From the NCBI GenBank assembly GCA_018812265.1, contig JAHJDG010000117.1, positions 1 through 40,250 on the forward strand: a stretch of DNA of 40,250 bases. Reading direction: 5' to 3'. The first letter of the stretch is position 1; every line of letters begins with the position of its first letter. Under the pieces are notes generated by a model, which made no database searches, had not been told where the DNA came from, and worked only from the letters and a program-made list of their open reading frames with translations. Shown here piece by piece: positions 23,197 to 37,053 of this stretch. A program made the translations under genes and the position numbers. Origin of the DNA: a bacterium (lineage in GTDB: Bacteria > Electryoneota > RPQS01).

Positions 23197-25212
23197 GTGA
23201 TTGAGCTGGTCCGGGCCGTACGTCCTAAGCGGTTGAAATCCATGAACAAGAAAGAGAAAGAACCTCCCGATCAGGGCATGACCATTGACGAGATCAAGAG
23301 CCGCACCAAGCTCCGCAGCGGCCTGACTGGTCTCCGCCCCGACGGACGCCCGCGAACCCTCGGCCCGGTGTCCGACCTCGAACGGCACATCCCCCCCGAG
23401 TGGTGGACGACGCTGTTCAACGCGGTCTACCTCAAGACCGACGGCGACGTGGTGGAGGACCATGAGCTTACCCGCCGCGAGGTGGATCTGGTGGTCGCGC
23501 TGACCGGCATCGAACCGGAGGACCGCGTGCTCGATCTCTGCTGCGGGCAGGGCCGGCATGCGCTCGAACTCGCGCGGCGGGGATTCAAACAGGTGGCCGG
23601 CGTGGATCGCTCGCGCTTTCTGATTCGCCTCGGCCGCCGCCGCGCCAAAAAAGCCGGGCTTTCGGTGCAGTTCCGCGAAGGCGACGCGCGCAAAGTGCAT
23701 CTGCCCGAAAACTCCTTCGATTGCGTCATCATGATGGGTAACTCGTTCGGCTATTTCGAGAGCGCCGACGATGACGCGCGCGTGCTCGAATCGGTGAAGC
23801 ACGTCCTGCGCTCGGGCGGACTGTTGCTTCTGGATTTGGCTGACGGCGAATTCCTGCGCGAACACTTCGAAGCCCGCTCCTGGGAATGGATTGACGACAA
23901 CTACTTCGTCTGCCGCGAGCGCTCGCTCTCGAAGGACGGCGCGCGGCTCATCAGCCGTGAAGTGGTGGTCAGCGCGCAGGAAGGCGTGATCACCGATCAG
24001 TTCTACGCCGAACGGCTCTATTCGCGCACGGCCATCGCCGAGTTGCTCGACAAGACCGGCTATCGCAACGTCCGCTTCCACGGAGAGTACGCCACCAATT
24101 CCGAGCGCGCGCAGGATCTCGGCATGATGGCCCGCCGGCTCTTGATTACCGCCAGCGTCCCCCAGAAGGCGGTGGTGGTGCGCAAGCGCGCGCCCATCAT
24201 CTTCCCCGACGTGACGGTTCTGCTCGGCGATCCGCATCTGCCGGATTCGGTAAAGCTGGGCGGTCAGTTCAATCCCGAAGACATGGACACCGTGCAGCGG
24301 TTGAAAACCGCGCTGTCTGAACTCGGCGATTTCCGTTTCACCTATCTCGATCAGCATGGCACGATGTTGCAGGCGCTCCGTCAGAATCCGCCCGCCTTCG
24401 CGCTGAACTTCTGCGACGAGGGTTTCAACAACGACGCGTTTCTCGAGCTGCACGTTCCCGCTTTTCTCGAAGTCCTGGGAGTTCCCTACTCCGGTGCGGG
24501 TCCCTCCTGTCTCGGACTCTGCTACGACAAGGGTCTGGTGCGGGCGATTGCGCAGAGTCTGGACGTTCCGGTTCCCGCCGAGACCTACGTGGACGCCGAC
24601 GACATCGCGGGCACGATTCCCTCGATCTTTCCGGCCTTCATCAAACCCGCCACCGGTGACAGTTCCATCGGCATTACCCAGCATGCCGTCGTCAAGACTC
24701 CCGATGAAGCGGTGGAGTACCTGACCTTCGTGCGCGAATCGCTGCCCGGACGCTCGGTGCTTGTGCAGGAGTTTTTGCCCGGCGAGGAATACTCGGTGGG
24801 AATCATCGGCAATCCCGGTCGCGGCTGGACGGTGCTGCCCGTTCTCGAAGTGGACTACAGCAAATTGCCGCCCGGTCTGCCGCCGATTCTCTCCTATGAA
24901 TCCAAGTGGGATCCGCAGTCGCCCTACTGGACGAGCATCCGCTATCATCGCGCGCATCTTTCCGATGAGCTGCATCGGTTGCTCATGGACTACTCGCTGC
25001 GGCTGTTCGAGCGGCTCGGCTGCCGCGACTACGCGCGCTTCGATTATCGCATGTCGGCCGACGGTGATCTGAAACTGCTCGAGGTCAATCCCAATCCCGG
25101 CTGGTGTTGGGACGGCAAGTTCTTTATGATGGCCGAGTTCGACGGCCACAGCTACACCGATTTCCTGCGGCTGATTCTCGACGCCGCTCAGGCCCGCTAC
25201 GCCCGCGCCTGA
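23197..25212 (+). CDS. Fusion of class I methyltransferase and D-Ala-D-Ala-ligase-like ATP-grasp enzyme
   Basis: The 671-aa protein joins two enzymes. Residues about 95-320 form a SAM-dependent methyltransferase: motif I VLDLCCGQGRHALELARRG (from 111), acidic loop GVDRS, then DCVIMMGNSFGYF. Residues about 339-665 form an ATP-grasp ligase like Ddl: VLLGDPHLPDSV, VPYSGAGPSCLGLCYDKG, FIKPATGDSSIGI (about 482-493), VQEFLPGEEYSVGI and LEVNPNPGW (about 628). It probably makes a peptide-like or amino-acid-derived product and methylates it or a precursor, but the substrate is unknown; EVNPNPG differs from EVNTLPG of true Ddl. No signal peptide is seen. The start may be GTG 23197 (GGAAGGGA about 9 nt upstream) or ATG 23242. 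Confidence 0.87.
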   Translation: MIELVRAVRPKRLKSMNKKEKEPPDQGMTIDEIKSRTKLRSGLTGLRPDGRPRTLGPVSDLERHIPPEWWTTLFNAVYLKTDGDVVEDHELTRREVDLVVALTGIEPEDRVLDLCCGQGRHALELARRGFKQVAGVDRSRFLIRLGRRRAKKAGLSVQFREGDARKVHLPENSFDCVIMMGNSFGYFESADDDARVLESVKHVLRSGGLLLLDLADGEFLREHFEARSWEWIDDNYFVCRERSLSKDGARLISREVVVSAQEGVITDQFYAERLYSRTAIAELLDKTGYRNVRFHGEYATNSERAQDLGMMARRLLITASVPQKAVVVRKRAPIIFPDVTVLLGDPHLPDSVKLGGQFNPEDMDTVQRLKTALSELGDFRFTYLDQHGTMLQALRQNPPAFALNFCDEGFNNDAFLELHVPAFLEVLGVPYSGAGPSCLGLCYDKGLVRAIAQSLDVPVPAETYVDADDIAGTIPSIFPAFIKPATGDSSIGITQHAVVKTPDEAVEYLTFVRESLPGRSVLVQEFLPGEEYSVGIIGNPGRGWTVLPVLEVDYSKLPPGLPPILSYESKWDPQSPYWTSIRYHRAHLSDELHRLLMDYSLRLFERLGCRDYARFDYRMSADGDLKLLEVNPNPGWCWDGKFFMMAEFDGHSYTDFLRLILDAAQARYARA

Positions 25213-25352
25213 AACGATGACCGATGAGCGATGAAGGATGAGGGATGAAGGATGAATGATGAAGGATGAATGATGAATCCTTCCTCCCGGTGGTGACTCT
25301 CCAGAGTCACCCCTCAATGACCCGTAGCGCTGCACTGCGTGCGCTCCAATTT

Positions 25353-25629
25353 GTAGCGACACGATTCATCGTGTCCTGTCCCCGTAGATGCAAACGGCAG
25401 TTTGCTGATGGGGATTGATTGCATGCCCGCTGTAGTTTCACACGGCACTGTGTTTCGTAGGGGCACGACATGTCGTGCCCGTGCATAGCCTCCCCTTTGT
25501 AGTGACACGATTCATCGTGTCCTGACCTCGTAGATGCAAACGGCAGTTTGCTGATGGGGATTGATTGCATGCCCGCTGTAGTTTCACACGGCACTGTGTT
25601 TCGTAGGGGCCGATTCATCGTGCCCATCT
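25353..25629 (+). repeat. 146-bp tandem duplication of a four-hairpin REP-like cassette
   Basis: GTAG heads occur at 25353, 25384, 25432 and 25457, and again at 25499, 25530, 25578 and 25603; every pair is exactly 146 nt apart. Stems in order: ACACGATTCATCGTGT, CAAAC-GGCA-GTTTG, CACA-CGGCAC-TGTG, then GGGCACGACATGTCGTGCCC in copy 1 and GGGGCCGATTCATCGTGCCC in copy 2. Confidence 0.85.
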
Positions 25630-25922: not shown

Positions 25923-26762
25923 ATGTCAACCACACTAAAGGAACGCTGGCCAGATTGCGATATCAGGCATTTAGTTTACGAAGACATGGATCTATTCGTT
26001 GTTTTCGTCGACAGCGAACTTGATGTAGATTGGGAGACGACCAGCAAGTGGGATGAAAGGCAGCCGACGAACATGCAGGAACTCAATGCGATCATTAATG
26101 ACGCGGCCACAGTAGAGTGCACGCCCTGCGAACACCTTCGAGAAAATATTAGACTGAAGTTCAAACGACTTGTCGGTGAGGCAATAGCTCGAAGCCTTAG
26201 CCATGATTATGACAATGCAAAGAGAATGCTCATTGCAGCCAAAGACTTCATTGATGCCCGAATTCGGGAGAAATCTAGGGCGTGGTATCTCGAAGCGAGC
26301 GTGGTGATTGCTGGATCAGAGTGTTTGGTTGGCGCAATACTCTGGCTATTACGCGAACAGGTGTCGGGACTTGTTGGAAACAATATGATTTCGTTGTTGT
26401 TGTCTGCTGTCGCTGGCGGTTGTGGTGCTCTCTTATCGATTATCCTACGCATTGGAAAGTTTGAACTTGATAGCGCATCTGGGAAAGGTCTTCACAATCT
26501 TGAGGCTGGATCGCGAATTGTCGCGGGGAATCTCTCTGCAATTCTAGTCTATTTCGGTATCAAATCGGGCTTGATTCTTCCCAGTTTGGCGAATGTTCCT
26601 GAGTTGATTTGGGGGCTACTTCTGCTGGCATTCATTGCGGGTAGTAGCGAGCGGCTAGCCCCTTCGATAATTGCCCGCTTTGCTTACTCGGCGAACCCTG
26701 ATGATTCCTCAACCAGTAAGCCAAGCTTATTAGACAAACACAATCCAGGAGGAATATCATGA
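25923..26762 (+). CDS. Four-TM membrane protein, partner of the caspase-like protease
   Basis: This 279-aa protein has no recognised family. Residues 1-120 are soluble: a mixed segment with CTPC (Cys66, Cys69), then helices (RENIRLKFKRLVGEAIARS, NAKRMLIAAKDFIDARIREK). Four hydrophobic helices follow at about 121-143, 155-176, 199-219 and 228-246, with FIAGSSERLAP at the last membrane boundary, then a short polar tail. No signal peptide is present, so the N-domain is probably cytosolic. The basic linker DARIREKSR just before TM1 would suit cleavage by an Arg/Lys-specific caspase homologue; that is speculation. The stop overlaps the protease ATG (ATGA). Codon use is AT-richer than in core genes and repeat spacers lie on both sides, suggesting acquisition. 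Confidence 0.75.
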   Translation: MSTTLKERWPDCDIRHLVYEDMDLFVVFVDSELDVDWETTSKWDERQPTNMQELNAIINDAATVECTPCEHLRENIRLKFKRLVGEAIARSLSHDYDNAKRMLIAAKDFIDARIREKSRAWYLEASVVIAGSECLVGAILWLLREQVSGLVGNNMISLLLSAVAGGCGALLSIILRIGKFELDSASGKGLHNLEAGSRIVAGNLSAILVYFGIKSGLILPSLANVPELIWGLLLLAFIAGSSERLAPSIIARFAYSANPDDSSTSKPSLLDKHNPGGIS

Positions 26763-27490
26763 CACGAGGATCCGTAATTTTTGGATATCCGGGCGAGCTT
26801 GGTCAGGAGGACTATTGCCCAGGCGTTCTCGAAGACATCGAGGGATACCGTCGTTTCCTGACATCACCAAATGGTGGTTTATGGTCAGAGAATGAGATTC
26901 AGCAATTGACAAACGCAAGTTCTGGAGATGTCAATCGTGCTATCGACAGACTCGAGCACGTTGATTATGGTCTTGTGGTCTTTTCTGGGCATGGAAGCTT
27001 TGCATCTAGAACAAATACGACGGTCTTGCAGATCAACAGGACATCCGAAATAGACCACACCGAGCTATTAAGGGGTGCCCAGAGACAGACTCTTATCTTG
27101 GATTGCTGTCGCCAGCCAGATGAACGGATTGTACTTGAGGAGTCTATTAAGAAATCTGCCGCAGCCTACGTTCTTTCCGATGCGTCCAGGTGTCGTGTGT
27201 TATTCGATGAAAGCATTCTGGCTTGCGCGCCTTCCCGTGTTGTCCTATATTCCTGCCGAATTAGCCAAGTGTCCATAGATACACCTGCCGGTGGTTTGTA
27301 TTCGTTCAGCCTTGTCAGGCATGCCATGAATTGGGCAGCAAGACAGGGACAGTCTAGATCGGTTCTTTCCACCGTGGCTGCACACAATACGGCTGCAATC
27401 ACGGTGGGAATGCGTTCCAACGGCACACAAACTCCGGTTGCAGAGAAACCAAGATCCGAGCCGTACTTCCCGTTTTGTGTCTCGGCATAG
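26759..27490 (+). CDS. Caspase-like protease (peptidase C14 / orthocaspase type)
   Basis: This 243-aa protein is a compact caspase-fold protease. The first strand and helix read VIFGYPGEL ... VLEDIEGYRRFL. The catalytic His is in VVFSGHGS (His78), and the catalytic Cys in LILDCCRQP (Cys117, position two after Asp, as in the DSC motif of metacaspases). YVLSDASRCRVLFDES matches the post-catalytic 'vLSAS' strand, and GGLYSFSLVRHAMNWA the late 'G-hydrophobic' helix. Bacterial homologues usually cut after Arg or Lys. There is no extra sensor domain, so control probably comes from the coupled TM protein (ATGA overlap). The pair looks like a stress- or phage-response module, but its role is unproven. 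Confidence 0.85.
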   Translation: MTRGSVIFGYPGELGQEDYCPGVLEDIEGYRRFLTSPNGGLWSENEIQQLTNASSGDVNRAIDRLEHVDYGLVVFSGHGSFASRTNTTVLQINRTSEIDHTELLRGAQRQTLILDCCRQPDERIVLEESIKKSAAAYVLSDASRCRVLFDESILACAPSRVVLYSCRISQVSIDTPAGGLYSFSLVRHAMNWAARQGQSRSVLSTVAAHNTAAITVGMRSNGTQTPVAEKPRSEPYFPFCVSA

Positions 27491-27805
27491 GTCTAGTGAT
27501 CTTTGCATTTGTGTTTCCAATAGTGATTCTGAAGAGTTACCCCTGGCGAAGGTGGCGTATGAAGCTTCCGCCCGGCTTGCGCACGGATTCCGTGCCACGT
27601 GCAATACGATGTGCAGCGCTTAATCCGGCTCGGCGACCCCAACCGTAGGGGCTGATTGCATCGCCCGTTGTCGTTTCACACGGCAGTGTGTTTCGGAGGG
27701 GCACGACATGTCGTGCCCGCTTGATTCCATCGCACCGCCTTTCCCTCGCGAATCGCACTTCCTTGTGTGACTACGCTCCCCTGCTGTCAGCCTACCCCCC
27801 CCATT

Positions 27806-30199: not shown

Positions 30200-30447
30200 A
30201 TTGGGCAGCAGATGTTTTTCCATGCTTTCCCACGAGGCTATGCAGCTTCATTTGCACAGTTTCTTACAGGGTTTCCTCGGAGCTATCCATTTCTCCGATA
30301 CTTCGCTAATACCTATGGGCAGCAACGATTTGTATCACGTTGAGAATTAGATTGACACAATCTGCAATGTGCTTTATATTACTATGACAAACAATAAGAT
30401 ATGTGAACTTTTTCTTTTTGTGCGAAACGTAACAAGAGGAGATGGCC
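30200..30447 (+). other. AT-rich leader region of the fibre-protein operon
   Basis: Between terminator and first fibre gene lie about 250 nt with no hairpin repeats. The region carries a strong promoter at 30352-30380 and the ribosome binding site GAGGAG at 30436-30441. Nothing else can be supported. Confidence 0.55.
30352..30380 (+). promoter_or_regulatory. Near-consensus promoter TTGACA-N17-TATATT
   Basis: TTGACA at 30352-30357 and TATATT at 30375-30380, 17 nt apart, match the housekeeping consensus almost perfectly. Transcription would begin near 30387, about 60 nt before the first fibre gene, and could cover all five genes because gaps are only 40-47 nt with no terminator. Confidence 0.75.
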
Positions 30448-32955
30448 ATGAAAGCGACCTTCCGTGCGTGCTTAGCGCTACTGATGATTCTGCCGTTCTG
30501 CGAAGCATTTGCTATGGCTCCGGGACAGATGAATTATCAGGGATTTCTGACGGCGACCGATGGATCACCTTTGGACACAACAGTAGCGATGACATTTCGT
30601 ATTTATCCGATTGCGGTGGGCGGATTAGCCGGTTGGACGGAGATTCATTCCAGCGTGACAGTGTCCGATGGGTTGTTTAAAGTACAACTGGGGGAGACGC
30701 TCCCCCTGTCTTCAGATCGCTTCTATGAAGACACGATGTGGCTGGGGATTACGGTGGGCAATAATACAGAGATGATTCCGCGAATCATGTTTGGAGCGGT
30801 GCCGTATGCCTATCGGGTGGGGACGGTGGACTATGCGACGGGCGGAACGATACTGGGGAACGTCTGGATCGCGGGCAAGGGGAACATCGGACTTGAAAAT
30901 ACGAATGCGGGTGAATATGCTTTTGTGACCGGAGTGGAGAACACCGCAAGTGGTAGCCGGAGTTCGATCCCCGGCGGCACAGACAACACGGCCAGCGGAA
31001 CCGCCAGCTTTGTCGGCGGTGGAGCGGCTAATGTTGCCGAAGGTGATGAATCGTCCATTGGCGGCGGCGCTGAAAATTACACCTCAGCCAGAAATGCGTC
31101 GGTGGGAGGCGGAATCGGCAATACGGCCAACGGAGACTACTCGACGATTGCGGGCGGTTCGACCAATCTTGCCGACGGAGATGGTGCGGCAATATCCGGC
31201 GGCGGCTTTAACCTATCCCGGTATTTCGCAACGGTAGGCGGGGGAAAGTACAACAAGGCGCGCGGAGATTATTCGGTAATCGCGGGCGGTGGCGGACCGG
31301 CAGCCGGAGATTCCAATTCGGCGACGGGGGCAAGTTCTGCGATCGGCGGTGGACGGCAGAACGTAGCTTCGGGACTCTATTCCACGGTCGGCGGCGGCTA
31401 CAGCAACGATGCCACCGCCCACAGCGCGACCGTCGGGGGTGGTTTTGGGAATGGTGCCGAAGGCCAGTACTCGACGATGAGTGGCGGACGCTACAATCAT
31501 GCCGCGCTGGATTATTCGGTGGTCGGCGGCGGCTATGCCAACAATGCCGGTTATATGGCCGTGGTGGGCGGCGGCAACACCAACTATGCGAGCGGCGATT
31601 ATTCGATGGTGGGGAGCGGGCAATATAACCGGGCTCGTGGACTGTACTCAGTAGTCAGCGGCGGCGGCGGGTCGGCGATGGCCGATTCGAACAGTGCGAT
31701 TGGAGATTACTCGACGGTGAGTGGGGGTCGCCACAACAGAACCAGCGCCGACTACACAACCATAGGGGGCGGCTACTACAATCAGGCCCAGGGCAGCGGA
31801 GCGACCGTGGCCGGTGGTCAGAACAATATAGCCAGCTATCTTTATCCGACGGTCGGTGGTGGTGTCAACAACAGTGCCAGTGGATATGGCGCGGTTGTGA
31901 GTGGAGGTGGGTACAACGTAGCTCCGGGCAGCTATTCGACGGTGAGTGGTGGTGTTTCCAATCAGTCACTCAGCGACTACTCCGCGATTGGCGGAGGAAA
32001 CAACAACCGCACCCGCGGTCTCTACGCTGTGGTTGGTGGCGGAGGGGGTCTCGCGTTACAGGATTCAAACTCGGCATCGGGGGACTACTCCACGATTGGT
32101 GGAGGGCGCAGGAATGCAACGGGGTATGAATACACAACGGTCGGCGGTGGTCGGAATAACCGGGCCGATTCCATATATGCTACAGTCGGTGGCGGCTACG
32201 ACAACTGGGCCATTGAGCGATACTCCACGGTCGGTGGCGGATCTGCGAATTTTGCGCAAATGTACGGAGTGGTGGCCGGCGGCGACAGCAACACGGCCAG
32301 TGCCTTTGGAGCGGTGGCTGGCGGGTGGTACAACCGCGCGGAGGGTTGGTATTCGATGGCGCCGGGCGGAGCAAACAACCGGGCTTACGGTTCCTACAGT
32401 TTTGCCGCCGGCCGAAGGGCACAAGCCATGCATAGCGGCGATTTCCGTTGGGCGGATTCCTATAATGCAAATTTCTCCGGACCCGACACGGCCAACACGT
32501 TTGCCGTACGGGCCAGCGGGGGAGTATATCTGTTCACGAACACGAGTTTGACTTCGGGAGCGCGATTGTATGCGGGGTCTTCGACGTGGAACGCGGTCTC
32601 GGACAGCACGATGAAGCGACGCTACGGAAAGGTGGACACGAAAGAGGTACTCGACAAAGTGGCCGCGTTGCCGATTGAGCGCTGGAGCTATAAGGCGCAA
32701 GACGAGAACGTCCATCACATCGGTCCGATGGCGCAGGATTTTTGGAATTCCTTCCACGTCGGAGATGACAGCCTGGCCATCTCCACGATTGACCCTTCCG
32801 GCATTGCGTTGGCGGCGATACAGGAACTGGCGAAGAGGAATGAGAAATTAGAAACGAGAAATGAGAAGTTGGAGGAAGAGATGGCGGTGCTCCGCGCACA
32901 GGTGCAGACGCTGATGGCGGCACAGCAACACACAGAGGCAGGAATTACAAAATAG
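30448..32955 (+). CDS. Secreted beta-roll fibre protein with S74 chaperone domain, paralogue 1
   Basis: This 835-aa protein has a signal peptide (1-22) and an N-terminal domain beginning MNYQGFLTATDGSPLDT and ending near AVPYAYRVGTVD. About 32 YadA-head-like units follow, each about 15 residues, pattern S/A-T-V-G-G-G-x-x-N-x-A-S-G. A 'SFAAGRRAQA' to 'VRASGGVYLF' transition leads to an S74 domain: the dyad Ser718 and Lys723 in SDSTMK, then HHIGPMAQDFW. A coiled coil closes it. In S74 fibres the C-terminal domain drives trimer folding and then cuts itself off before the Ser. ATG 30448 lies 6 nt after GAGGAG; ATG 30442 is too close. The coiled coil holds a heptad duplication (RNEKLET/RNEKLEE). 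It is likely a trimeric surface fibre; the ligand is unknown. Confidence 0.82.
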   Translation: MKATFRACLALLMILPFCEAFAMAPGQMNYQGFLTATDGSPLDTTVAMTFRIYPIAVGGLAGWTEIHSSVTVSDGLFKVQLGETLPLSSDRFYEDTMWLGITVGNNTEMIPRIMFGAVPYAYRVGTVDYATGGTILGNVWIAGKGNIGLENTNAGEYAFVTGVENTASGSRSSIPGGTDNTASGTASFVGGGAANVAEGDESSIGGGAENYTSARNASVGGGIGNTANGDYSTIAGGSTNLADGDGAAISGGGFNLSRYFATVGGGKYNKARGDYSVIAGGGGPAAGDSNSATGASSAIGGGRQNVASGLYSTVGGGYSNDATAHSATVGGGFGNGAEGQYSTMSGGRYNHAALDYSVVGGGYANNAGYMAVVGGGNTNYASGDYSMVGSGQYNRARGLYSVVSGGGGSAMADSNSAIGDYSTVSGGRHNRTSADYTTIGGGYYNQAQGSGATVAGGQNNIASYLYPTVGGGVNNSASGYGAVVSGGGYNVAPGSYSTVSGGVSNQSLSDYSAIGGGNNNRTRGLYAVVGGGGGLALQDSNSASGDYSTIGGGRRNATGYEYTTVGGGRNNRADSIYATVGGGYDNWAIERYSTVGGGSANFAQMYGVVAGGDSNTASAFGAVAGGWYNRAEGWYSMAPGGANNRAYGSYSFAAGRRAQAMHSGDFRWADSYNANFSGPDTANTFAVRASGGVYLFTNTSLTSGARLYAGSSTWNAVSDSTMKRRYGKVDTKEVLDKVAALPIERWSYKAQDENVHHIGPMAQDFWNSFHVGDDSLAISTIDPSGIALAAIQELAKRNEKLETRNEKLEEEMAVLRAQVQTLMAAQQHTEAGITK

Positions 32956-33002: not shown

Positions 33003-35180
33003 ATGAAACGGACATTGATTATTCTGCTGACTCTGGTGTCGGCGGCCGCATTGGCTGCGGTTCCGCAGCAAATCAATTATCAGGGATACCTGACGGATCC
33101 AGTGGGTAGTCCGCTGGATACAACGGTAGCCATGACGTTCAAACTCTACACCGATTCCACGGCGGGGAGCTTGTTGTGGACGGAAGCGCGTCCGTCGGTC
33201 ATGGTGACGGAGGGGCTGTTTGACGTCCGGCTCGGACAGGTCACTGCTTTTGGCGAGGGAGTTTTTGCGGTTCCTGAATTGTGGCTGGAGATCACGGTGG
33301 GAGACAATTCGGAAATGACGCCGCGCTCGAGAATCGTTTCGGTGGGTTATTCGTTTCGCACGGGATCGGTGGACGGTGCGAGCGGGGGGACAATTTCCAG
33401 CAGCGTAAATATTTCCGGCAATCTGAAAGTTGCCGGCATGGCGGAGATTGGATTGAACAACGAAGCCGTGGGATCGTATTCTCTCGTTGTCGGGGAAAAT
33501 AATGTAACAGAGGGAAACTGGTCCACGATCGGCGGCGGCGAGTCGAATCATACCACCAGTTCCTACACCACCATCGGCGGTGGACAAAACAATAATACGA
33601 TCGGGATGCACTCGGCGATTGGCGGCGGCAAGCAGAATCTCACAGGGGACACGTGCGCTGTTGTTGGTGGAGGACTGCGCAACGCAGCGCTGGGAAAGTA
33701 CTCGGTTGTGGCGGGCGGCGGCGGGACGGGTACAGCCGATTCCAATGTTGCTGCAGGCGACTATTCGGCCATTCTCGGCGGCTATCGCAATCGGGCTACG
33801 GCCCCTCGCTCGACCGTAGCCGGTGGATGGATCAACAGCGCTGAAGGGGACGCCGCTTTCGTGGGTGGCGGCTGGACAAACCATGCCACCGGTTTCCAGA
33901 GTGCCGTTCTCGGTGGAGAACAGAATTCCGCATCCGGCGTGTTGTCAGCCATTGGAGGAGGATTTCACAACACGGCTTCCGGAAAGTTCTCCGGGATTAC
34001 GGCTGGTCGCTATAATGAGGCCTCCGATTCCGGCGCGACGGTGGGCGGGGGCGGGTACAACGCAGCACGAGGGAAATATTCCGTGATCGCGGGGGGCGGA
34101 GGCACGAGCGCAACCGATTCCAATTCGACGATTGGTGACTACTCAACTGTTGGCGGAGGCAAAAGCAACAGTGCGAGCGGTTATCTGGCCACGATAGATG
34201 GCGGCTACTCTAATAGTGCTACCTTTTACGGTACCACGATAGGCGGTGGTTTTGAAAACTTATCAGGCAACCCATACGCCACGGTGAGCGGCGGCTCGTA
34301 CAACGAGGCGACCGGCGTCAAAGCCACAGTGGGCGGCGGTGGTGGCAATACCGCCTCCGGCGAAGAAGCTACGGTAGGCGGCGGGTATGCTAACAGTGCC
34401 ACCAGCAATCGCGCCACGGTAGGCGGAGGCGCGTACAACGAAGCAGCCAATAATGCAGCCACGGTGGGAGGCGGCCAAAGCAATCAGGCGACCGGCGATC
34501 GCGCCACGGTAGGCGGGGGCAATATGAACCGAGCCACCGGTATCTGTGCCACGGTGAGCGGCGGCTACAACAATTGGGTCTCGGGCTCAAGCAGCACAGT
34601 GGCGGGCGGGATAAACAACACCTGTTCGGGAGCCCGCACTTTCGTATGCGGCAACAATGCAACTGCTGTGGCCGACAGTTCTTTTGTCTTCAACGACGGA
34701 CGGTACGATGGCAACATCGGTCAAGTATCGCAGCCGCGGCGTTTCATCGCCATTGCTTCGAACGGGACATATTTTTATTCCAATGCGGCCGCATCGCTGG
34801 GTGTGGTGCTGCCCGCCAACGGGACGGCGTGGTCGGCGATCTGCGATTCGACCAAGAAAGTGCGTTATGGCCAAGTGGACACCAGGGATGTGCTACAGAA
34901 AATCGCGCAACTGCCGATTGAGACGTGGAGCTACAAAGACGACCCAAACAGCATTCGTCATATAGGCCCGATGGCGCAGGATTTCTGGAGATTGTTCGGC
35001 TTGGGAGATGACAGTCTGAGCATTTCGACGCTCGATCCCGACGGCATTGCGCTGGCGGCGATACAGGAGTTGGCCAAGAGAAATGAGAAACTGAAAGAGG
35101 AAGTCGCGCTGCTCCGTTCGCAGGTGCAGACGCTAATGGCAGCCAAGCAAGAATCAGCCGTTGTACGGGGAAGTAAGTGA
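33003..35180 (+). CDS. Secreted beta-roll fibre protein with S74-like domain, paralogue 2 (Ser to Cys)
   Basis: This 725-aa protein has the same layout: signal peptide (KRTLIILLTLVSAAALA), N-domain INYQGYLTDPVGSPLDT, a beta-roll of GGG-N repeats, an S74-like domain and a coiled-coil tail. Two differences stand out. At the self-cleavage position it has Cys614 (CDSTKK, Lys619) instead of Ser. The region before S74 lacks the 'SFAAGRRAKA' signature and reads TFVCGNNATAVADSSFVFND. The C-terminal core (RHIGPMAQDFW, ISTLDPDGIALAAIQELA) is intact, so chaperone folding may remain while cleavage is altered or uses a thiol. GGGGAGA before ATG 33003 fixes the start. The gap to paralogue 1 is 47 nt. Confidence 0.82.
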   Translation: MKRTLIILLTLVSAAALAAVPQQINYQGYLTDPVGSPLDTTVAMTFKLYTDSTAGSLLWTEARPSVMVTEGLFDVRLGQVTAFGEGVFAVPELWLEITVGDNSEMTPRSRIVSVGYSFRTGSVDGASGGTISSSVNISGNLKVAGMAEIGLNNEAVGSYSLVVGENNVTEGNWSTIGGGESNHTTSSYTTIGGGQNNNTIGMHSAIGGGKQNLTGDTCAVVGGGLRNAALGKYSVVAGGGGTGTADSNVAAGDYSAILGGYRNRATAPRSTVAGGWINSAEGDAAFVGGGWTNHATGFQSAVLGGEQNSASGVLSAIGGGFHNTASGKFSGITAGRYNEASDSGATVGGGGYNAARGKYSVIAGGGGTSATDSNSTIGDYSTVGGGKSNSASGYLATIDGGYSNSATFYGTTIGGGFENLSGNPYATVSGGSYNEATGVKATVGGGGGNTASGEEATVGGGYANSATSNRATVGGGAYNEAANNAATVGGGQSNQATGDRATVGGGNMNRATGICATVSGGYNNWVSGSSSTVAGGINNTCSGARTFVCGNNATAVADSSFVFNDGRYDGNIGQVSQPRRFIAIASNGTYFYSNAAASLGVVLPANGTAWSAICDSTKKVRYGQVDTRDVLQKIAQLPIETWSYKDDPNSIRHIGPMAQDFWRLFGLGDDSLSISTLDPDGIALAAIQELAKRNEKLKEEVALLRSQVQTLMAAKQESAVVRGSK

Positions 35181-35220: not shown

Positions 35221-37053
35221 ATGAAACGAATTCTGATCATTCTGCTGGCTATGTGGTCAGCGACCGTCTTTGGCACGATCCCACAACTGGTGAACTATCA
35301 GGGGTTCTTGACGGATTCAGATGGGAGTCCGTTGGATACGGTGGTGGCGATGACATTCAAGATGTATGATGCTGCTTCGAGCGGCACGCAACTATGGACA
35401 GAGACGCAACCCGCCTGCACGGTACGGGTGGGACTATTCAACGTTCTCTTGGGCTCAGTGGTTGCGATTCCGGACAGTTTCGGCGCGACGAGCCGCTGGT
35501 TGGGAGTGACGGTTGGCGGCAACAGCGAGATGGTGCCACGGACTCGTTTCGTTTCGGTCGGCTATGCCTATCGCGTGGGCACGGTGGACGGAGCCAGCGG
35601 AGGCACAGTCAGCGGTGATGTGAACATCGTCGGCAAAGCGAACATCGGTTCAGGCAATGTGAACACGGGAGCCTACGGCTTCGTCGTGGGTTACAGTGAC
35701 ACGGCATCTGGCGATTACTCGACGATAAGCGGCGGGAAATACAACACTGCCAGCGGCAACTATGCAGCAGTTTGCGGCGGCTGGGACAACGATGCCAGCA
35801 TCCTTGCCACGGTGGGCGGCGGGCAATCCAACACCGCCAGCGGCGGTTTAGCCACGGTGGGCGGTGGCTACGGCAACACTGCCAGCGGCACCTCAGCCAC
35901 GGTGGACGGCGGCGAATACAACGATGCCACCGCCTATGCAGCCGCGGTGGGCGGCGGTCGCTACAATCGTGCCCGAGGCGCTTACTCCGTCGTCGCCGGA
36001 GGCGGCGGCGAAGCGGCCAGCGACAGCAATTCTGCCAGTGGCGATCATTCAGCCATTGGCGGAGGGATGGGAAACGCTGCCAGCGGCGACCGTGCCACGG
36101 TGGGAGGCGGCTATGGCAACGATGCCAGCGGTTATGTGGCGGCGGTCGGCGGCGGCTATGGCAACACGGCCAGCAGGTGGTATACCACGGTGGGGGGCGG
36201 CTGGGGGAACGAAGCCAGCGCGCAATGCGCCACGGTAGGTGGAGGCAATCAAAATAGGGCGACTGTCCTCGGCGCAGAGGTAGGCGGTGGCTACTGGAAC
36301 AGTGCCGTTGACACTTGCGCAACGATTAGCGGCGGCTATAACAACTATGCCAGCGCCGAGTATTCCACGGTGGGCGGCGGTCGCTACAATCGTGCCCGAG
36401 GCAATTATGCGGTCATAGCGGGCGGCGGGGGCGATTCCTGGGCCGATAGCAATTCTGCCAGTGGCAACTACTCGGCAATACCCGGGGGGAGACAGAATGT
36501 AGCCGCCGGCCGTTACTCGTTCGCTGCGGGCCGAAGAGCCAAAGCCAATCACGATGGCAGCTTCGTCTGGGCGGATTCTACGAACAGTGACTTCGCTTCC
36601 TCGGCCATCAATCAGTTCAATGTTCGAGCCTCAGGCGGGGTACGCATTGCCACGACGACGGCGGGCAATGTGGGAGTGAAACTCGACAACGGCGATTCCG
36701 CATGGGAAGTCCTCTCCGACAGCACCAAGAAGACCAACCGCCGAGCCGCCAACACCGAAGAGATTCTGGCCAAGGTTGCTCAGTTGCCTATCGAAGAATG
36801 GAACTACAAGCATCAGGATGCCTCAAACAGACACGTCGGGCCAATGGCGCAGGATTTCTGGAGCCTGTTCCACCTCGGAGACGACAGTTTGAGCATCTCG
36901 ACTATTGATCCAGACGGGATTGCGCTGGCGGCGATACAGGAGCTGGCGAAGCAGGTGAACGCTCTAAAGGAAGAAAATCAAAGTTTGCGTACGCAGGTGC
37001 AGACGCTGATGGCGGCGAAGCAGGAGTCTGCTGTTCTTGGAAGAGACAAATGA
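35221..37053 (+). CDS. Secreted beta-roll fibre protein with S74 chaperone domain, paralogue 3
   Basis: At 610 aa this is the shortest complete member. Signal peptide KRILIILLAMWSATVFG; N-domain VNYQGFLTDSDGSPLDT; then about 20 GGG-N units containing two copies of a longer module (SVVAGGGG or AVIAGGGG, then DSNSASGD/NY); then YSFAAGRRAKANHDGSF and QFNVRASGGVRI. The S74 dyad is Ser499 and Lys504 in SDSTKK, followed by RHVGPMAQDFW and a coiled coil (LAKQVNALKEENQSLRTQVQ). AGGGAGATCGGATC before the ATG is shared with the next gene's leader. The DNA of the repeats is near-identical in 45-bp units, so unit number could change by recombination without frameshift. Confidence 0.82.
   Translation: MKRILIILLAMWSATVFGTIPQLVNYQGFLTDSDGSPLDTVVAMTFKMYDAASSGTQLWTETQPACTVRVGLFNVLLGSVVAIPDSFGATSRWLGVTVGGNSEMVPRTRFVSVGYAYRVGTVDGASGGTVSGDVNIVGKANIGSGNVNTGAYGFVVGYSDTASGDYSTISGGKYNTASGNYAAVCGGWDNDASILATVGGGQSNTASGGLATVGGGYGNTASGTSATVDGGEYNDATAYAAAVGGGRYNRARGAYSVVAGGGGEAASDSNSASGDHSAIGGGMGNAASGDRATVGGGYGNDASGYVAAVGGGYGNTASRWYTTVGGGWGNEASAQCATVGGGNQNRATVLGAEVGGGYWNSAVDTCATISGGYNNYASAEYSTVGGGRYNRARGNYAVIAGGGGDSWADSNSASGNYSAIPGGRQNVAAGRYSFAAGRRAKANHDGSFVWADSTNSDFASSAINQFNVRASGGVRIATTTAGNVGVKLDNGDSAWEVLSDSTKKTNRRAANTEEILAKVAQLPIEEWNYKHQDASNRHVGPMAQDFWSLFHLGDDSLSISTIDPDGIALAAIQELAKQVNALKEENQSLRTQVQTLMAAKQESAVLGRDK

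Follow-up and report, generated by a model that had tools for sequence, protein, structure and literature searches.

A C14 caspase gene coupled to a gene for a four-helix membrane protein: a recurrent bacterial pair that may act as a membrane-linked switch

In the EACC1-caspase system, a two-gene membrane conflict system, EACC1 has been proposed to sense at the membrane and to activate the caspase (Kaur et al. 2020, PMC7159879). EACC1 has a glycine patch in its single transmembrane (TM) helix, and the associated caspase bears one of a variable set of C-terminal effector domains (PMC7159879). In a second arrangement, as a review summarises it, the gene for a caspase-like protease stands next to that for a bacterial gasdermin (Johnson et al. 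2022, reviewed in PMC9612521). TIR-caspase signalling in Thoeris, as cited in a later paper, also places a bacterial caspase in immunity (Rousset et al. 2025, cited in PMC12799240). Here, we compare with these systems a pair of genes from a 40,250-nt stretch of bacterial DNA, referred to below as the window.

The layout of the pair is given in Table 1. Both open reading frames and their ATGA coupling were confirmed where the earlier note on this DNA, made from the letters alone, had placed them. The ribosome-binding site of the caspase gene is a strong one and lies 6 nt ahead of the caspase ATG.

Table 1. Features of the gene pair in the window. Topology, domain limits, and catalytic residues are predicted.
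Feature	Position	Strand	Description and basis
Gene 1	25923..26762	+	279-aa membrane protein, cytosolic N-domain and four TM helices; ORF, AlphaFold2 pLDDT 83
Cytosolic N-domain, residues 1-95	25923..26207	+	Three strands plus helices (model)
Long continuous helix, residues 96-142	26208..26348	+	Runs from the N-domain into TM1; invariant R113, E116, R119, W121
TM2-TM4, residues 153-257	26379..26693	+	Constant GG.GA..SI..R, LH.LE, and AG.SER..P motifs
AGGAGG ribosome-binding site of the caspase gene, within gene 1	26747..26752	+	
ATGA stop/start overlap, gene 1/gene 2	26759..26762	+	Translational coupling
Gene 2	26759..27490	+	243-aa single-domain C14 caspase; PF00656 E 3.2e-9, nine-member alignment
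Predicted catalytic His78 codon (SGHG)	26990..26992	+	Invariant in nine homologues
Predicted catalytic Cys117 codon (D-x-C-R)	27107..27109	+	Invariant in nine homologues

The protein encoded by gene 2 matches Peptidase_C14 (PF00656) with 37.3 bits, above the curated cut-off of 21.4, and contains the motifs S76-G77-H78-G79 and D115-C116-C117-R118. In an alignment of nine members of the caspase family, residues H78, C117, D26, D69, and D115 are identical. The Pfam match and this invariance uphold the caspase-fold dyad, His78 and Cys117, that had been picked out earlier. Gene 2 is a C14 caspase with its dyad intact, and it is predicted to have peptidase activity. The invariant acidic residues, taken together with what is generally known of metacaspases, suggest that its S1 pocket would prefer Arg or Lys. 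An AlphaFold2 model of the caspase, for which two sequences were at hand, had a pLDDT of 30 and was unusable. A search of a viral collection with the caspase gave no matches, and the phage records held no match to the caspase or to the four-TM core of a Skermanella plasmid protein described below. No other sensor domain is recognisable by Pfam or NCBIfam in either gene of the window pair; therefore, one of the two proteins presumably senses.

Neither Pfam nor NCBIfam gave a match at E<=1 to the protein encoded by gene 1, no PDB sequence matched it, and its single match in PADLOC is not significant (E 0.05). This protein and every full-length homologue examined have four hydrophobic segments with an N-in/C-in charge bias. 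An AlphaFold2 model, built from the window protein and six fetched relatives (seven sequences), has a mean pLDDT of 83 and a pTM of 0.69; it predicts a small three-stranded α/β N-domain and a four-helix membrane bundle. Foldseek searches with the model gave no match at E<=0.001 in PDB or BFVD. The partner had been described earlier as an unrecognised four-TM protein with a soluble N-domain, not gasdermin-like, and that description agrees with the lack of a family or fold match in these searches. Among the caspase-linked members of the family, the N-domain is better conserved than TM1, and the helix at residues 74-95 shows 62% identity within this clade and 32% to members outside it. The TM2-TM4 motifs are common to all members. 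This pattern of conservation suggests that the N-domain may be the caspase-specific part of the protein and the membrane bundle its general part.

The caspase and the four-TM protein form a conserved module that recurs across phyla in either gene order, as follows. An alignment of the TM protein, scanned against 84,980 species genomes, gave four homologues. One of them, L010, from a Syntrophaceae MAG, has 42% identity; its upstream neighbour, at a distance of 12 nt, is a caspase from the same subfamily, so that the gene order is reversed relative to that of the window. A profile search of 395 genomes of the L010 phylum with the TM protein then yielded five full-length homologues. In one of these, L026, the TM gene is followed by the caspase gene after a 4-nt gap, which is the gene order of the window. 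The caspase profile found two matches in the same 395 genomes, each of them next to a TM gene; the co-occurrence of the two proteins by genome has a Fisher P of about 1e-4, with adjacency uncounted. In locus L038 (genome G524, from the sample of the Gemmataceae MAG's phylum), a caspase gene precedes the TM gene, and this caspase is the sole caspase match in 226 genomes of that phylum. At L038 5986-8776, within a type I restriction locus, an IS transposase gene interrupts the TM gene. The L009 phylum match proved to be a CorA-like protein and was discarded. The earlier note would have given up its reading if the TM gene were not conserved beside C14 proteases elsewhere; the pair recurs in L010, L026, and L038, with the two genes no more than about 12 nt apart. 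In the window's own phylum, for which 39 genomes were searched, neither gene was found in the other 38.

The pair has a GC content of 0.48-0.50 and a GC3 of 0.47, against a GC content of 0.60-0.62 and a GC3 of 0.77-0.79 in the flanking genes, which bears out the AT-richer codons noticed earlier. The contrast in GC3 and the absence from the 38 relatives show that the window pair was horizontally acquired. Contamination of the MAG was judged unlikely because the pair sits within a 40-kb contig of ordinary genes. The pair is flanked by a methyltransferase/D-Ala ligase fusion and a Na/Ala symporter, with Mfd and PPIases further off. The fusion is a single ORF at 23197-25212 with a methyltransferase domain and a D-Ala-D-Ala ligase C-terminal domain. 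Three large proteins in succession (30442-32955, 33003-35180, and 35221-37053) have a C-terminal Peptidase_S74 (endosialidase chaperone) domain and are probably surface proteins. The housekeeping character of Mfd, the PPIases, and the symporter would suit a role of the caspase in membrane stress or turnover, in which it processes membrane or envelope proteins without any part in defence. The atypical GC3, the absence of the pair from relatives, and the restriction, Abi, IS, or integrase-like neighbours of its homologues argue against such a role, which we regard as the least probable of the readings considered.

Among the window ORFs scanned, no defence gene was found near the pair, and the earlier reading of the pair as a possible defence module is to that extent not supported. 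Known defence genes do lie near relatives of the pair: restriction genes (type I or IIG) or AbiTii adjoin the L011, L012, L027, and L038 homologues, an observation that comes without a base rate. An integrase-like gene lies beside L010 and IS21-like genes lie beside L026, both read by eye. Neighbours of these kinds fit an accessory, mobile module. Repeats on both sides of the window pair are present, as had been noted: a 57-nt element in three copies (25344-25627 and 27663-27719), which contains the 20-nt palindrome GGGCACGACATGTCGTGCCC, and GATGAAG-type 7-mer arrays. The palindromic core occurs exactly at just three sites in the genome, two of them at this operon. The idea that the repeat arrays mark the limits of a defence element was rejected because they are unspecific, and we do not count them as evidence for a defence module.

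In a tree of the TM proteins, those of the window, L010, L025, L026, and L038 form one clade with support of 100/99. All five adjoin a peptidase of the caspase clan, a C14 caspase in four cases and a CHAT-STAND-TPR protein in the fifth. The latter, beside L025, consists of a CHAT domain, a 71-base assembly gap, and then a STAND-like and TPR stretch, in which the STAND part was read by eye. The L011 protein (38% identity) is cut off by a contig end and was left out of the judgement of partners. Outside the clade, the partners are more diverse. L012 has a convergent neighbour with a weak CHAT match, L027 lies beside AbiTii and a type IIG restriction gene, L013 beside a PIN-TPR-GreABC protein, and L028 has no recognised partner. 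Four-TM cores on plasmids of Skermanella (L003 4284-5636) and R. etli (L007 5707-6852) adjoin an LCAT-like hydrolase and an amidase plus a C1 peptidase, respectively, and the TM homologues of L042 (5182-6315) and L043 lie in phage or prophage contigs. The cores of L003, L007, and L042 carry differing N-domains, as parts of a wider unnamed membrane family. Homologues are thus also found without a recognised caspase (L028, L013, L042 from phage, and those on the plasmids of R. etli and Skermanella), so the TM family must have a role in its own right.

One alternative casts the TM protein as the effector. It would be cut by the caspase, and the freed four-helix bundle would permeabilise or depolarise the membrane, following the logic of bacterial gasdermins, which are activated by adjacent caspase-like proteases (PMC9612521). 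The membrane core, with its GG.GA..SI..R and AG.SER..P motifs, is constant in a superfamily in which the N-domains and the partner enzymes change, and stand-alone copies occur in phage or prophage contigs. The neighbour of L025 is a sensor-protease that already has a sensor of its own, which suits an effector role of the TM protein better. The fold model speaks against this alternative. After a helix at residues 74-92 in the N-domain, an unbroken helix enters the membrane at 96-142, and no flexible linker joins the N-domain to the TM bundle. Disorder is confined to the last 22 residues (258-279), a tail that is unconserved and just 7-8 residues long in two members with the pair. A search of gene 1 for conserved Arg or Lys residues as a cleavage site gave just R77, R90, and R144, which are more typical of the caspase-linked clade and too weak for a claim; most of the conserved Arg residues are also present in TM proteins that have no caspase. 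We consider the effector reading somewhat unlikely. The earlier note had left two options side by side, a membrane effector gated by the protease and a membrane sensor that controls it, and the lack of a linker in the model tilts the balance slightly to the second.

Further evidence comes from caspases with a different membrane partner. The caspase found on Leptospira plasmids belongs to the same subfamily (30% identity over its full length) and groups among the caspases paired with four-TM proteins, at a support below the tree's own threshold. The gene ahead of it encodes a protein with a single TM helix at its N-terminus; in L004 this is an annotated ORF of 101 aa, and in L005 a 151-aa ORF whose end lies 1 nt before the caspase. 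In the phylum of L011, four genomes have this caspase (L050-L053), one of them with two in tandem, and in all four a one-TM protein of about 155 aa lies directly 3′ of the caspase. Three of these one-TM proteins share 56-58% identity with one another and 24% with the Leptospira one, and the four genomes contain no relative of the four-TM protein at E<=1e-10. In L050-L053 (for example, L050 4220-6422), the caspase is located between glycan or ABC transporter genes and the one-TM protein, which is followed by a protein of about 300 aa from an unnamed family. This locus is a second, apparently undescribed membrane-caspase operon. The occurrence of the same caspases beside a one-TM protein elsewhere implies that a membrane partner is constant and that its type is exchangeable. 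One-TM partners are less obvious as pores, a further point against an effector role of the TM protein. Exchangeable membrane partners, the tight coupling of the two genes, and the patchy distribution would also be expected of a toxin-antitoxin-like pair, in which the TM protein sequesters the caspase at the membrane and keeps it inhibited, and a toxic protease is set free once the TM protein is lost or degraded. The gene order flips between pairs, however, and we judge this arrangement distinctly improbable.

The exchangeable membrane partner, the conservation of the N-domain, and the unbroken helix favour a reading that makes the four-TM protein a sensor or platform in the inner membrane, which holds and triggers the caspase, the whole being a horizontally acquired module. 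We give this reading a probability of about 0.45, a little short of even odds. It would work as follows. The cytosolic N-domain of the four-TM protein would hold the single-domain caspase. The four-helix bundle would feel a change, whether the entry of a phage, damage to the membrane, or a phage factor, and the signal would pass down the rigid 96-142 helix to activate the caspase by release or by clustering. The active caspase would then cleave cell proteins, leading to a growth stop or to the death of the infected cell. We infer the direct binding, the sensing, the activation, and the defence role of the pair. Against the sensor or platform reading stand the TM homologues without a caspase, the L025 pair, and the window pair's lack of a defence neighbour. 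The recurrence of this mobile pair in unrelated bacteria speaks for a so far undescribed switch, linked to the membrane, that would serve cell suicide or defence against phages.

A broader proposal, which we hold to be unlikely, is that the four-TM AG.SER..P family is a widely shared membrane-permeabilising immunity effector, gated in this clade by peptidases of the caspase clan (C14 or CHAT-STAND-TPR). If so, the family would be an analogue of gasdermin built on an integral membrane protein. The analysis has in any case revealed a four-TM family without a classification, members of which recur next to hydrolases of several kinds and also in phage or prophage contigs. Bacterial caspases have been regarded as ancestors or cousins of the machinery of animal cell death, and to our knowledge most of them have no known trigger or target. 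A single-domain caspase with an exchangeable membrane partner is about the simplest setting in which the switching-on or the targets of a caspase can be studied.

The pair compares with described systems as follows. A match to an already described system, the other outcome that would have counted against the earlier note, was found neither in the libraries searched nor in the open-licence literature, and a description elsewhere is possible; the pair is not described in the accessible part of a survey of prokaryotic caspase operons (PMC3501461). Thoeris likewise uses a bacterial caspase, but no TIR match was found among the window ORFs and neighbours scanned. Canu, a caspase-nuclease system (PMC12799240), shares a caspase and a neighbouring partner in defence-associated loci; the window pair differs in having neither a nuclease nor an Ig-like domain and a membrane protein as its partner, and no nuclease match, such as to the MBL-fold pro-nuclease of Canu, lies beside it. 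The gasdermin systems likewise place a gene for a caspase-like protease beside one for a membrane-acting protein. Gasdermin is soluble, whereas the partner in the window is an integral membrane protein made of helices, four of them TM; searches of Pfam, NCBIfam, and the PDB sequences placed it in no gasdermin family, and its model matched no fold in the PDB at E<=0.001. The Leptospira plasmid caspase, annotated as a "caspase family protein" and with no described function that we could find, is of the same subfamily and directly coupled to a small membrane protein, but its partner's single N-terminal TM helix shows no visible relation to the four-TM protein. The EACC1-caspase system is the nearest described kind: genes for a small membrane protein and a caspase are adjacent, and a membrane sensor is proposed. 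The window pair resembles this plan and departs from it in the three features tested. Its membrane protein has four TM helices, with an N-domain that is unrelated; its caspase is a single domain of 243 aa without a C-terminal effector domain; and that caspase scores 29.6 bits with the EACC1-type caspase model NF047832, against a cut-off of 140, with its relatives at 22-25 bits or without a match. We file the pair among the membrane-partnered caspase modules, with EACC1-caspase as its closest described counterpart.
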